This document shows positions 16,672-24,945 of a stretch of DNA of 50,221 nt, piece by piece. How positions within the stretch are numbered: the first letter of the stretch is position 1; the number at the start of each line of letters is the position of its first letter. The stretch is from Actinomycetospora sp. (lineage in GTDB: Bacteria; Actinomycetota; Actinomycetes; Mycobacteriales; Pseudonocardiaceae): the NCBI GenBank assembly GCA_029266415.1, contig JAQSWW010000019.1, positions 1 through 50,221 on the forward strand, read 5' to 3'. The translations under genes were made by a program, and so were the position numbers. The notes under the pieces are model-generated. The model was not told the origin of the DNA, did no database searches, and was given only the letters and a program-made list of their open reading frames with translations.

Positions 16672-17628
16672 TCAGCCCGCGGCGCCGGCACCCATGACGT
16701 CGAGGCCGGACCCGGACCCGGACGTGATGTCGACGAGGTCGTAGACGCGCATCGACGCGGCCCGGCCCGCGGAGCACGTCAGCGGTGTGGGCGAAGCGAC
16801 CCAGCGCTCGCGGACGGCCACCGTCACGGTCCCGCGCTCCGGGCCGCCGTCGAGCGCGACCTCGGTGACGTCCCGCTCGCGCACCTCGGCGCCCAGCACG
16901 CGGAGTGCGTCCACGCCGTGCTCGTCGTAGGCCAGGCGGGCATGGTGCTGGGCGGCCTGGGCGGGCGCGGAGAGGCCCGAACGCCCGCGCACCCACGTCG
17001 TGTGGACCTCGCCGGCGGCGTAGCGGTCGACCACCGCGAGGGCCTCGGTGGCCGGCACGCGCCCGAGCACCAGGCCGTGGGGCAGCAGCACCACGTTGGC
17101 GGCGAACCGGTCGCCGCCGGTGTGCGTGGTCTCCCAGGTGCGGTCGGGGTACTCCATGGCGAGCGCGGCGGCCACCGGGCGCCCGCGCATCGCGCAGCAC
17201 GCGTCGTGGCGCCCGTGGGCGCACACGAGGTAGATCGGCTCGGACGACGGCGTGGTCACGGCCTCGACGTCGGCGAGCGCGGCGGGCAGCTCGTCGGGCG
17301 AGCTCACCCGTCCCCAGCGCACGGACTCGGCGCCGGGGGTGGTGTCCACGATCGCGAACCGCCCGTAGTCGGCCGGGCCCTCGCCGCGGGCGCGCGAGCG
17401 GCGGATCAGCTGGAACCGCGCGCCGCGGGCCCGGCAGAACGCGTCGACCGCGTCGACGACCTCGGGCGCGTAGCCCGCGCCGCCGAGCGCCTGGCGGCCC
17501 CACGGACCGGGGTGCTCGACCAGAAGCCAGCACCGCGCCGGCGGAGCGGTCGCCACGAACGGGTCGTCACGATCGCGGGCGGCCTCCGAGCAGCGGAACA
17601 TGGCGGCGCCCGGCTCCGACGTGGTCAT
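16672..17628 (-). CDS. Sucrase/ferredoxin-like family protein
   Basis: A 318-residue member of the Suc_Fer-like family (thioredoxin-fold ferredoxin related). Signature segments: CWLLVEHPGPWGRQAL, YLVCAHGRHDACCAMRGRPV (cysteines suited to a 2Fe-2S cluster), WETTHTGGDRFAANVVLLPH and VRERWVASPTPLTCSAG (a C-terminal cysteine). It is presumably a cytosolic redox or iron-sulfur protein; partners are unknown. ATG 17628 is chosen because TATGAC (17640-17635) sits 6 nt upstream and earlier codons are poor. An IdeR/DtxR-like box lies 51-69 bp upstream. It follows the JmjC gene on the same strand after a 66-nt gap. Confidence 0.85.
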   Translation of the reverse strand: MTTSEPGAAMFRCSEAARDRDDPFVATAPPARCWLLVEHPGPWGRQALGGAGYAPEVVDAVDAFCRARGARFQLIRRSRARGEGPADYGRFAIVDTTPGAESVRWGRVSSPDELPAALADVEAVTTPSSEPIYLVCAHGRHDACCAMRGRPVAAALAMEYPDRTWETTHTGGDRFAANVVLLPHGLVLGRVPATEALAVVDRYAAGEVHTTWVRGRSGLSAPAQAAQHHARLAYDEHGVDALRVLGAEVRERDVTEVALDGGPERGTVTVAVRERWVASPTPLTCSAGRAASMRVYDLVDITSGSGSGLDVMGAGAAG

Positions 17629-17678
17629 CACTCCGTCATACCCCGCTCGCGGGACGGTGGACACCCGCAGCGCCAAAC

Positions 17679-17697
17679 TGAGGTGAGGCTGACCTCA
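17679..17697 (-). promoter_or_regulatory. IdeR/DtxR-like iron box upstream of sucrase/ferredoxin-like gene
   Basis: TGAGGTGAGGCTGACCTCA (read on the plus strand) matches 15 of 19 positions of the IdeR consensus TTAGGTTAGGCTAACCTAA, and all differences keep the dyad symmetry. It overlaps the TGA stop of the JmjC gene and lies about 16 bp upstream of the predicted -35 of the next gene. The same dyad (ACTGAGGT/ACCTCAGT) could instead be a weak terminator hairpin. Confidence 0.5.
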
Positions 17698-19017
17698 GTC
17701 CGGCACCAGCACGCCCTCCCGGAGCAGCCGGCGGACCACGACGATGCCGTCGTCGGGGGCGAGGCCCGGCAGCTCCGCGGCGGTGGCGGGGTGGCCGTCG
17801 AGCAGCCGTGCGACCGCCTCCCGCGTCCCGGCGGGGAGCGTGATCGTGCGGTCGGGCAGTTCCAGGACGACCGGGGCGTCGGCGGCGGGTCCGGCGGGCC
17901 GCAGCCGGTGGTGCAGGCCCCGGCGCAGGCGGACCGTCGTGGACGCGTCGGCCGCGGTGGCCGCGGCGGCCTGGGCCAGCGGTGCCACGGTCTCCGGCCG
18001 GTTGCCGTGCCACACGCGGCGCCGAAGGCTCCGGGCGACGCGCTCGGGGCGCTGCGGGTCGGGCGCGGCGAGCGTCTGGGCCAGGCGCGCGGCGATGGCC
18101 TCGACGTGCGGCGCGAGCGCGGCGGGGTCCGAGGCGTCGATGCCCAGCGGCAGGGAGCCGCGCAGCTCGGGGTCGGTGGTCAGTGCGTCGAGCAGCGCGT
18201 CGACCACCGCCCAGCGGGTGAGGACGTGTACGCCGATCGTCAGGTGGGCGCTGACCTCGCCCTGCGCGGTCGCCGAGTGCAGGTAGCCGCGCGGCAGGTA
18301 GAGCGCGTCGCCGGGCTCGAGGACCTCGTCGATCAGCGGGTCCTCGGCGGCCCGGGCGGCGACGGCGTCGGCGTGGTCGTTCCAGGGCTGGGAGCGCAGC
18401 GGATCGGGGTGCACGGGAGCGTGCACGTGCCAGCGTTTGGTGCCGGCGATCTGCAGGACGAAGACGTCGTGCACGTCGTAGTGGGCCGAGAAGCCCTGCG
18501 ACGACGCCGGGGTGATGTAGGCGTTGGTCTGGACGGGGTGGCCCAGCTCCGCGGCGAGGTCGGTGACGAGGTCGGTGACCGGGCCCCAGGTGCGGTGCAC
18601 GCCCTGGAGCACGACGGTGTGGCCCTCGGCGAACAGGGCGGCGACGCGGTCGTCGCGCACCTGGTCGGACACCTCGGCGCCGACGCCGCCCTCGCCGGTG
18701 AAGTGGCGGGAGTCGACGACCGTGCCCTGCTTGGCGACGCGCAGGAAGGGCGTTCGCAGGCCGCGACGGCTCAGCAGCTCGTCGACGGCGGCGAGGTCGA
18801 ACACATCGCCGAAGGCCGCGGGGGCGTCGCCGTCCGCGTGCTTGGCGAGGTCCGCGGCGCGGGAGAGCCGCGCCTCGCGGCCCCACGTCGCGGCGGCGAA
18901 GTCGTCGAGGTCGCCGGCGACGAGGCGCCGCAGCGCCGGGCGGTCGTGTGCCCGCCCGGCCCCGCGGGCCCGGCCGCGATCCGGGGACCGGTCGGCCCCG
19001 GGGGTCACGGTCGTCAT
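17695..19017 (-). CDS. JmjC/cupin 2-oxoglutarate-Fe(II) oxygenase, ROX-like, next to repeat peptide
   Basis: A 440-residue Cupin_4/JmjC oxygenase. Iron ligands are visible as His179-x-Asp181 (SAHYDVHDVFVLQI) and His247 (YLPRGYLHSATA); Lys194 in AGTKRWHVHAP fits the 2-oxoglutarate contact of the ribosomal-oxygenase (ROX) type. A dimerisation region follows, and the C-terminal 70 residues (VVLELPDRTITLPAGTREAV to VRRLLREGVLVP) look like the winged-helix domain of ROX proteins. Known ROX enzymes hydroxylate Arg or His in ribosomal proteins. Here the start codon is 6 nt after the stop of an Asp-Gly-Gly repeat peptide gene, so that peptide is the likely substrate (inference). There is no signal peptide. 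Activity would need Fe(II), O2 and 2-oxoglutarate. Confidence 0.85.
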   Translation of the reverse strand: MTTVTPGADRSPDRGRARGAGRAHDRPALRRLVAGDLDDFAAATWGREARLSRAADLAKHADGDAPAAFGDVFDLAAVDELLSRRGLRTPFLRVAKQGTVVDSRHFTGEGGVGAEVSDQVRDDRVAALFAEGHTVVLQGVHRTWGPVTDLVTDLAAELGHPVQTNAYITPASSQGFSAHYDVHDVFVLQIAGTKRWHVHAPVHPDPLRSQPWNDHADAVAARAAEDPLIDEVLEPGDALYLPRGYLHSATAQGEVSAHLTIGVHVLTRWAVVDALLDALTTDPELRGSLPLGIDASDPAALAPHVEAIAARLAQTLAAPDPQRPERVARSLRRRVWHGNRPETVAPLAQAAAATAADASTTVRLRRGLHHRLRPAGPAADAPVVLELPDRTITLPAGTREAVARLLDGHPATAAELPGLAPDDGIVVVRRLLREGVLVPD

Positions 19018-19023
19018 CGCTGC

Positions 19024-19356
19024 TCAGGCACCGCCGTCGGCGCCGCCGTCGGAGCCGCCGCCACGGGCGCCACCGTCGGCCGGGCCGTGGCCGGCCGCAC
19101 CGTCGGCACCACCGTCAGCGCCACCGTCGGCACCACCGTCGGCACCACCGTCGGCACCACCGTCGGCACCGCCGTCGGCACCGCCGTCGGCCCCGCCACC
19201 GGCCGCGCCACCGTCGGCCGGGCCGTGGCCGGCGCCGCCGTCGGCACCGCCGTCGGAGCCCTGGCCGCTGGCTCCGCCGTCCGCCGGGCCGTGCCCGCCG
19301 CTGCCGCTCGTGGTCATGTCGTCGTCGTTCACGTCGGACTCCTCCGTCGTCGTCAC
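19024..19356 (-). CDS. Asp-Gly-Gly repeat peptide, putative substrate/precursor of the JmjC oxygenase
   Basis: A 110-residue low-complexity protein made almost only of Ala, Asp and Gly. After a short acidic head (MTTTEESDVNDDDMTTSGSG) it has three GHGPADGGA blocks separated by (GADG)n arrays, the longest with about eight ADGG units, and ends SDGGADGGA. It contains no cysteine, no aromatic residue and no hydrophobic segment. It is co-transcribed with the JmjC gene (6 nt gap). It looks like a multi-core precursor of a ribosomally made, hydroxylated peptide, or a repetitive metal-binding protein; I know no assigned function. An alternative start, GTG 19332, follows GGAGGAG at ideal spacing and gives 102 residues. 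Confidence 0.7.
   Translation of the reverse strand: MTTTEESDVNDDDMTTSGSGGHGPADGGASGQGSDGGADGGAGHGPADGGAAGGGADGGADGGADGGADGGADGGADGGADGGADGAAGHGPADGGARGGGSDGGADGGA
19100..19193 (-). repeat. 12-bp coding tandem repeat, (Ala-Asp-Gly-Gly)n
   Basis: Near-perfect copies of a 12-bp unit (plus strand GGCACCACCGTC or GGCACCGCCGTC) lie in frame within the repeat peptide gene. The unit-to-unit identity suggests recent expansion or contraction, so copy number may vary between strains. Confidence 0.8.
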
Positions 19357-23538: not shown

Positions 23539-24945
23539 GTGAACAGGGACGACGGGCCCCGACCGGGAACCCAGCGCAGCGTGGCCGAGCTCCTGGCCGC
23601 GTACAGCGCGGAGCCCCAGCAGCCCCGCCGCCGGCGCGCCGTGGAGACCGACGACGAGCCCGCCGACGGCCACGGCGCCGCGGGTGGGTACGCGCCCCGC
23701 GCGCCCGAGGCCCCGCCCACCGCCGCCCAGCCCGCGGGCCACGACACCGGCTACGACACCGGCTACGACACCGGCTACGACACCGGCTACGACACCGGCT
23801 ACGACACCGGCTACGACACCGGTGGCTACGACGCCCGGGCTCACGCCGACGCGGGCTACGACTCCGGCTACGACACCGGGTACGACTCCGGCGGCGACGA
23901 CTCCGGCGGCTACGAGACCCTGCGCCACGACACCGGCTACGACACGGGGTACTACGCGACGGCGGGCCACGACCCGGAGCCCGGCTACGGCCGCCCGCAC
24001 GACGGTCACGACGCTGGGCGCGGACAGGGCTGGTCCCCGGGCTACGCCTCGCCCGAGGCCCCGACCCGTCACGACCCGTGGTCCGCCGGCCCGCCCCCGG
24101 GCGCGCGTCCCGGTCCCGGCCCGTTCCAGGGCCCGCCCCCCGGCCACGCACCCGGCCAGCCGGGCCCGCCACCCGGCAGTCGGCCGCCGTCCGGGCCGCC
24201 GCAGCCCCCGCCCGTCACGGGCACGCAGGCCTTCGGTGCCCCGCCCGCGCGTCCCGCCGGTCTCCCGGGAGGCCGGCGTGCGGTGCCCACCACCCACGGG
24301 CCCGCCGGCACCGCGGCCGTCCCCGCCGCCCGCGTCGGCGACGCCGGCCCGGCGACCGCCGCCTCGCCCGCCGCCCGCCCGCCGGGTGCCCCGCCGCAGC
24401 GCGGCGCCGACGATCACGGTGGCCCGGCCACCGCGGCCTCACCGATGGCGCGCCCGGACCTCGACGACGACGAGGATCTCGACGAGGACGAGGCCGGCTT
24501 CGACGAGCAGGTCGACGACCTCCACCACGACGACGAGCAGGACGACCCGCGCGCTGCGCCGGCGGGTCTCGGGCGCGCGCCGCGGCGCACGCTGCTCGAG
24601 GACCGCGACGAGCCTGACCGCGACGAGTACGAGGACGACGGGTACGACGAGGACATCGACGACGATCCCGGACGGCCCGCCTCGTCGGCGCGCGACTGGA
24701 TCGTCATGATCGTGCAGCTGGTCGTCGGTGCCCTGCTCGGCGCCGTGCTCTGGACCGTCTTCTCCTACCTGTGGAAGGAGCAGCCGGTCGTGGCGCTGGT
24801 GCTCGCGGCCGGCGCCACCACGGGGCTGGTGTTCGGCGTGCGGGCCCTGCGGCGCTCCGACGACCTGCAGACCACCGTGCTCGCGGTGGTCGTCGGGCTC
24901 GTCGTGACCGTGTCGCCGGCCGTGATCGTGCTGCTGAGCCGCTGA
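23539..24945 (+). CDS. Long repetitive, disordered protein with C-terminal membrane helices
   Basis: A 468-residue protein. The head NRDDGPRPGTQRSVAELLAA carries a short helical motif. Then come seven DTGY-type repeats and further DSGY/DTGY variants, a Pro/Gly-rich stretch (residues about 175-280), a very acidic segment (DLDDDEDLDEDEAGFDEQVD), and finally three hydrophobic helices (WIVMIVQLVVGALLGAVLWT, VVALVLAAGATTGLVFGV, TTVLAVVVGLVVTVSPAVIV). Position and architecture match the mycobacterial membrane protein Rv0497. The cytosolic part is probably intrinsically disordered. GTG 23539 has TAGGTGG just upstream. Function unknown. Confidence 0.8.
   Translation: MNRDDGPRPGTQRSVAELLAAYSAEPQQPRRRRAVETDDEPADGHGAAGGYAPRAPEAPPTAAQPAGHDTGYDTGYDTGYDTGYDTGYDTGYDTGGYDARAHADAGYDSGYDTGYDSGGDDSGGYETLRHDTGYDTGYYATAGHDPEPGYGRPHDGHDAGRGQGWSPGYASPEAPTRHDPWSAGPPPGARPGPGPFQGPPPGHAPGQPGPPPGSRPPSGPPQPPPVTGTQAFGAPPARPAGLPGGRRAVPTTHGPAGTAAVPAARVGDAGPATAASPAARPPGAPPQRGADDHGGPATAASPMARPDLDDDEDLDEDEAGFDEQVDDLHHDDEQDDPRAAPAGLGRAPRRTLLEDRDEPDRDEYEDDGYDEDIDDDPGRPASSARDWIVMIVQLVVGALLGAVLWTVFSYLWKEQPVVALVLAAGATTGLVFGVRALRRSDDLQTTVLAVVVGLVVTVSPAVIVLLSR
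23743..23823 (+). repeat. 12-bp in-frame tandem repeat encoding Asp-Thr-Gly-Tyr
   Basis: Six identical copies of GACACCGGCTAC and a partial seventh lie head to tail. Perfect identity at DNA level means recent slippage; copy number is likely variable and assembly errors are possible here. Confidence 0.9.

Follow-up and report, generated by a model that had tools for sequence, protein, structure and literature searches.

An actinobacterial operon pairing an Asp-rich repeat peptide with a JmjC oxygenase, a candidate route to ribosomal hydroxy-aspartate chains

The locus raises the question of why a protein made almost only of Ala, Asp, and Gly is encoded directly before a JmjC oxygenase, and whether the one is the substrate of the other. 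The window (the whole stretch of DNA analyzed, 50,221 nucleotides from an Actinomycetospora sp. with a draft genome of 4.73 Mb) had led to an original prediction that the repeat protein is the dedicated substrate of its neighbor, with His or Asp as the modified residue. The pair is examined below together with two further elements of the operon, a junction hairpin and a third gene.

The repeat peptide and its neighboring oxygenase

The repeat frame lies at 19024-19356 (-), where Ala, Asp, and Gly make up 85 of the 110 residues, the GHGPADGGA block occurs three times, and the DGG triplet occurs 14 times, and its stop codon is followed after a 6-nt gap by the start of the JmjC gene (19017); composition, blocks, and spacing are all as first described. 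The open frame of 110 residues is also real, but its first codon is probably not the true start. The GTG at 19332 is probably the true start, giving a peptide of 102 aa at 19024-19332 (-), since the acidic leader VNDDDMTTSG found there (19303-19332 (-)), recognized by its likeness to the starts of relatives, matches the MNDDDITTSG with which genus relatives begin; other relatives contain VNDDDITTSG, and GAGGAG is located upstream of the GTG. A strict form of the acidic leader, defined by one regular expression, is present in 129 of 179 peptides and looser forms in many others, while it is nearly absent in some groups (L087, L205, L207, and L210). Among 16 members from the genus Actinomycetospora, the number of DGG triplets per peptide ranges from 11 to 23, so that the repeat copy number drifts while the gene itself is old; the earlier impression of freshly expanded repeats thus holds for the variable copy number but not for the gene. 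Another Asp-containing tandem array, coding for GYDTGYDTG, is found within a larger ORF of the window at 23749-23819 (+), with five overlapping matches compared with none in shuffles.

The oxygenase (440 aa; 17695-19017 (-)) belongs to JmjC_2 (PF08007), matching the Pfam family with an E-value of 7.6e-28 and 97 bits against a cut-off of 22. H179 (18481-18483 (-)), D181 (18475-18477 (-)), and H247 (18277-18279 (-)), which by analogy with the family are the first, second, and third iron ligands, are invariant in 41 of 41 relatives, as is K194, presumably the 2OG-binding residue; with the triad and K194 intact, the oxygenase should be active. The AlphaFold2 (AF2) model has a pLDDT of 92 and ends in a strand-helix domain (residues 346-440; 17698-17982 (-)), which the model and Foldseek place at the position of the winged helix of ribosomal oxygenases (ROX). 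Nearly the whole chain aligns by Foldseek to NO66, MINA53, and YcfD, the NO66 match having an E-value of 1.1e-24 and the identity being at most 22% among the matches listed; among solved structures, the His hydroxylases NO66 and MINA53 come closest. The full-length, ROX-like enzyme with an intact H-x-D...H site is therefore confirmed.

The same winged-helix-like domain had been proposed as the element that recognizes the peptide. A tethered AF2 model lent this no backing, as it gave no docking of oxygenase and peptide and left the whole peptide disordered (pLDDT below 50), making the model uninformative on this point. RRE-like folds are reported for a subset of PF08007 proteins from fish and algae, which leaves winged-helix recognition plausible only (PMC12710340).

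An imperfect DtxR/IdeR-like palindrome overlaps the oxygenase stop codon at 17679-17697, reaching 14 of 19 consensus positions in the window and in one close relative only. An IdeR/DtxR iron box as a general feature was rejected because a match of at least 14 of 19 positions was reached at only two of 209 loci, duplicates included, and none scored higher against the 19-position consensus.

Conservation and age of the pair

By a fixed criterion, an Asp-rich repeat ORF was found directly upstream at 169 of 176 distinct JmjC loci, counting that of the window, a figure that describes the orthologous group rather than JmjC_2 proteins at large, since the loci are the best-scoring matches per search and JmjC paralogues with weaker matches (E 1e-40 to 1e-60) fall outside it. 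The 176 loci were deduplicated such that no two have common DNA around the start, and the same rule picked out 23 of 1924 control ORFs (other ORFs of at least 200 aa in the same loci). Of the seven remaining loci, three are cut by a contig end (L107, L111, and L114), one has a masked stretch (L167), and the others (L041, L042, and L099) are remote paralogues. The ORF upstream of the L041 paralogue resembles, by eye, a nitroreductase or SagB-type enzyme, perhaps another RiPP-like context. Within the genus, the oxygenase is present in 17 of 18 genomes and the peptide lies directly upstream in 16 of these 17, the remaining one ending at a contig edge. The pairing is likewise present in the family, order, and class samples and in 80 named loci, where the fixed criterion identifies the ORF at 76. 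The pairing is thus kept across the sampled actinobacteria rather than being unique to this genome, and on this point the dedicated-substrate idea survives; the original interpretation as a whole is partly supported. At L095 and L098, the oxygenase frame seems shortened while the peptide is intact, reflecting either decay or a draft error.

The peptide dN/dS lies between 0.01 and 0.12 in 11 pairs; 17 had been chosen, and six of them had a member dropped as a duplicate. Synonymous changes far outnumber non-synonymous ones, so the ORF encodes a translated protein that is under purifying selection.

A DNA pattern for DGGADG was also searched in genomes with and without the enzyme. It formed a run at the JmjC locus in six of six JmjC-positive genomes, while seven of 34 JmjC-negative genomes had matches, six of them single or scattered and one a cluster (G020); JmjC-negative here means no match at E 1e-3 or 1e-40, which is established for 32 of these genomes and deduced for G068 and G072 from their absence among the listed positives. 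Stand-alone peptide genes without JmjC were considered and rejected at the three places that were read (G020, G181, and one of the two in G461), which proved to be other genes or chance; G040, G048, G051, G053, and the second G461 place lie outside that inspection. A different protein at L212:3376-4152 carries a DDGGADGG tail before LPVTG, so Asp-Gly repeats alone are not diagnostic.

The named hosts span approximately 20 actinobacterial genera, including Actinomycetospora, Pseudonocardia, Amycolatopsis, Saccharopolyspora, Actinokineospora, Kribbella, and Geodermatophilus, and further Blastococcus, Modestobacter, Klenkia, Cellulomonas, Dietzia, Curtobacterium, and Agromyces; some further operon-bearing genomes are taken by us for mycobacteria. 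The oxygenase or a paralogue was detected in 206 of 348 order genomes sampled (E 1e-20), 56 of 197 class genomes (E 1e-40), and 20 of 246 phylum genomes (E 1e-80). Two copies labeled Streptomyces and Bacillus (L138 and L146) look Kribbella-like and Geodermatophilaceae-like, respectively, and may be misnamed. A search for plasmid copies gave 16 records, all from Streptomyces, of which none reaches 80% of the query; coverage is 53% in the 15 listed.

The phylum search supplied 12 additional loci for reading, two of them within the class and ten beyond it. Ten of the 12 have the peptide, mostly as D-x-D arrays instead of ADGG; its leaders are of the type EDEDIVTTW or LSDEEIETV, and its cores (DADGTDGDGTDG, STDADADSTDADAD) are dense in Asp. 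Of the two others, L217 is without a clear peptide and L226 is truncated. When 63 oxygenases were placed in a tree, D-x-D cores occupied the early branches and ADGG cores formed one derived group; the tree was built by a quick method with a weak root, its rows were picked as peptide-positive save three paralogues, and the D-x-D label of L174 is an error of the automatic peptide picks.

The junction hairpin and the Suc_Fer-like gene

Two elements of the operon had been overlooked in the original prediction. The first is an RNA hairpin at the junction of peptide and enzyme, which in the window lies within the first oxygenase codons (18924-18970 (-); z -4.6), with its 3' arm in the RPALRR codons. 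Stability was scorable at 135 of 169 loci, where the RNA from the peptide stop to the first oxygenase codons has a median z of -3.6 against dinucleotide shuffles and lies below -2 at 71%, compared with a median of -0.2 and 6% below -2 for a within-gene control stretch. In an alignment of 14 of 16 Geodermatophilaceae-type sequences, pairing holds for 97.9% of the cells of a 17-bp stem, and sliding the partners lowers this to 36-54%. Twelve cells of the stem are changed on both sides, exceeding every one of 500 shuffles; these changes are confined to three of the 17 pairs, with 12 of 17 invariant, and a count of three pairs was reached by 148 of the 500 shuffles. A swap test gave only a modest difference, with 13.2 of 18 for own and 12.5 for swapped, own scoring higher in 71% of 138 cases. 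These data point to a covarying RNA hairpin at the junction, the covariation coming from the Geodermatophilaceae-type loci, and the hairpin probably tunes the peptide-to-enzyme ratio.

The second is the gene for a Suc_Fer-like protein (PF06999), the third member of the operon, located at 16672-17676 (-); its start is uncertain, with an ATG near 17628 being likely. It lies directly downstream on the same strand at 143 of the 163 peptide-positive loci where the available sequence reaches far enough and at ten of the 12 further phylum-search loci. C-X8-C and H-x-G-G are kept in 142 of 142 aligned sequences, and two further Cys, at fragment positions 120 and 261, are invariant. Where HxGGH has its last ligand, 117 of the 142 carry Asp, 22 Cys, and three Glu, and none carries His, so the C-X8-C...HxGGH motif of Apd1/Aim32 is altered at its last His throughout. 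By analogy with the family, we infer that the protein binds a [2Fe-2S] cluster. A search for solved structures resembling it returned none at E 0.01. A comparison with the defence library gave no match.

The pair also occurs without any Suc_Fer gene in the genome, as found in six of six genomes of one family (f15, which we take to be Micromonosporaceae) and two of two genomes of one genus (g80), which makes Suc_Fer a frequent accessory and not an essential component; in another family (f43), three of three genomes carry it elsewhere.

Target residue, proposed product, and known systems

The repeats offer two candidate residues to the oxygenase. His hydroxylation, as performed by NO66 and MINA53 on ribosomal proteins, would agree with the closest solved structures and with the many repeats that contain HGPADGG or HDGG; yet 23 of 164 peptides contain no His at all, L077, L204, and L209 among them (27 of 169 in an alternative peptide set), and in the deep branches the D-x-D cores, most of them free of His by eye, retain little but Asp among small residues. 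The 164 are the 166 automatic picks minus the wrong ORFs L041 and L099, and the picks missed L090, L116, L117, L205, and L210. Counts are approximate because a few cores were mis-trimmed (L092, L105, and L130): of 2446 core Asp residues, 1702 are followed by Gly-Gly and 237 are preceded by His. As the peptides were selected by Asp content, Asp in every core is partly by construction, and the argument draws its force from the disappearance of the other residues. Asp rather than His is therefore the likely modified residue, and His as the true target is very unlikely.

The repeat peptide is likely the substrate of the oxygenase. The peptide might instead remain an unmodified intracellular polyanion, buffering metal or binding calcium, while the enzyme acts elsewhere, for example, on a ribosomal protein. 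The enzyme is nearest the ROX group by both Foldseek and sequence, and the D-x-D cores may resemble calcium-binding acidic repeats, both of which speak for this alternative. However, the near-universal adjacency at the 169 loci and the way the cores change type across the tree of enzymes argue for a direct partnership that a housekeeping substrate would not need, and the polyanion alternative is rated as improbable.

Another possibility is a classical secreted RiPP, in which the leader is removed and the repeats are cut into small hydroxylated extracellular peptides acting as metallophore or signal. The short leader, where it occurs, and the variable repeated cores are in keeping with it, JmjC enzymes in RiPP clusters have already been published, and a short precursor gene stands beside a modifying enzyme at the same 169 of 176 loci, as in RiPP systems. 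Against it, no signal peptide was seen by eye, and the genera have no recurrent transporter or peptidase cluster in common within 6 kb: around the 80 named loci, the oxygenase and Suc_Fer alone among the 25 largest neighbor clusters occur in more than 21 loci, in a survey based on simple gene calling (ORFs of at least 90 aa within 6 kb, clusters unannotated). Two transporter-like ORFs are found nearby in Kribbella by eye. The product may thus not be a secreted RiPP, an alternative that we regard as unlikely, though not strikingly so.

The reading preferred here, held with somewhat better than even confidence, is that the peptide is a dedicated ribosomal substrate on which the adjacent JmjC enzyme hydroxylates Asp side chains, with Suc_Fer as redox partner and the hairpin in control of the ratio. 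The old actinobacterial operon would make an Asp-rich repeat peptide on the ribosome and then modify it; the JmjC 2OG/Fe(II) oxygenase would recognize the short acidic leader, the repeats, or both and would hydroxylate Asp side chains serially, probably at the beta carbon and many times per chain. Asp beta-hydroxylation is a plausible form of the modification. A flexible chain with closely spaced hydroxy-aspartates, suited to binding metal ions, would result, the Suc_Fer-like protein, of a [2Fe-2S] family, would serve as redox partner, and the junction hairpin would probably set the peptide:enzyme ratio. Metal binding by hydroxy-aspartate is familiar from siderophores, from which metal binding by the modified peptide would follow, although this step is speculative. 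A bolder version, entertained as a rather doubtful extension, is a new phylum-wide class of ribosomally encoded poly-hydroxyaspartates in which the JmjC enzyme modifies a dozen or more Asp of a D-G-G or D-x-D array to form an intracellular polymer that binds iron or calcium, the metal being loaded or released by a dedicated [2Fe-2S] protein with a new ligand type, at a ratio set by the hairpin.

The operon, recurring in approximately 20 named actinobacterial genera, is widespread and apparently undescribed. NCBIfam gave no match for the window peptide, the window enzyme, 41 enzymes, and seven of eight further peptides, the eighth having a weak match to Ser-Asp adhesins; a literature search, with partly narrow term combinations and few subscription journals, did not find the peptide or operon among the matches listed. 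As a candidate oxygenase with its repeat substrate built into the same operon, the system lends itself to direct testing, and it may point to polymers of hydroxy-aspartate being made by way of the ribosome.

The window oxygenase has the JmjC fold and domain layout in common with NO66, MINA53, and YcfD/RoxA, whereas those enzymes target His or Arg of ribosomal proteins and here the candidate substrate is a low-complexity peptide encoded next door. The Suc_Fer-like protein resembles the Apd1/Aim32 thioredoxin-like ferredoxins in family, C-X8-C, and H-x-G-G, as far as the available text of these sources goes (PMC11138216, PMC8482512), but has Asp, Cys, or Glu where theirs has the last His of HxGGH (PMC11138216). 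Other enzymes are described, in the accessible parts of two accounts, as beta-hydroxylating Asp in precursor peptides (PMC13060819, PMC13097080); among the MNIO and alphaKG-HExxH peptide hydroxylases, MNIO forms beta-hydroxy-Asp in a ribosomal peptide, but these are other enzyme families acting at a single site, while the present system combines JmjC with a repeat array (PMC13060819). The fish and algal PF08007 proteins with RRE-like folds have their closest bacterial homologues, at approximately 30% identity, in RiPP-like contexts, for which the available portion of the source names no Asp-repeat precursor or Suc_Fer partner (PMC12710340). The biphenomycin hydroxylases BipG and BpmG are likewise JmjC 2OG oxygenases beside a ribosomal precursor, on which BipG acts by hydroxylating Orn (PMC12707348, PMC12257519). 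By the descriptions available in these sources, they are set apart by ornithine as target, a short core, and many partner enzymes, in contrast to the long Asp-repeat chain and the Suc_Fer-like partner found here.
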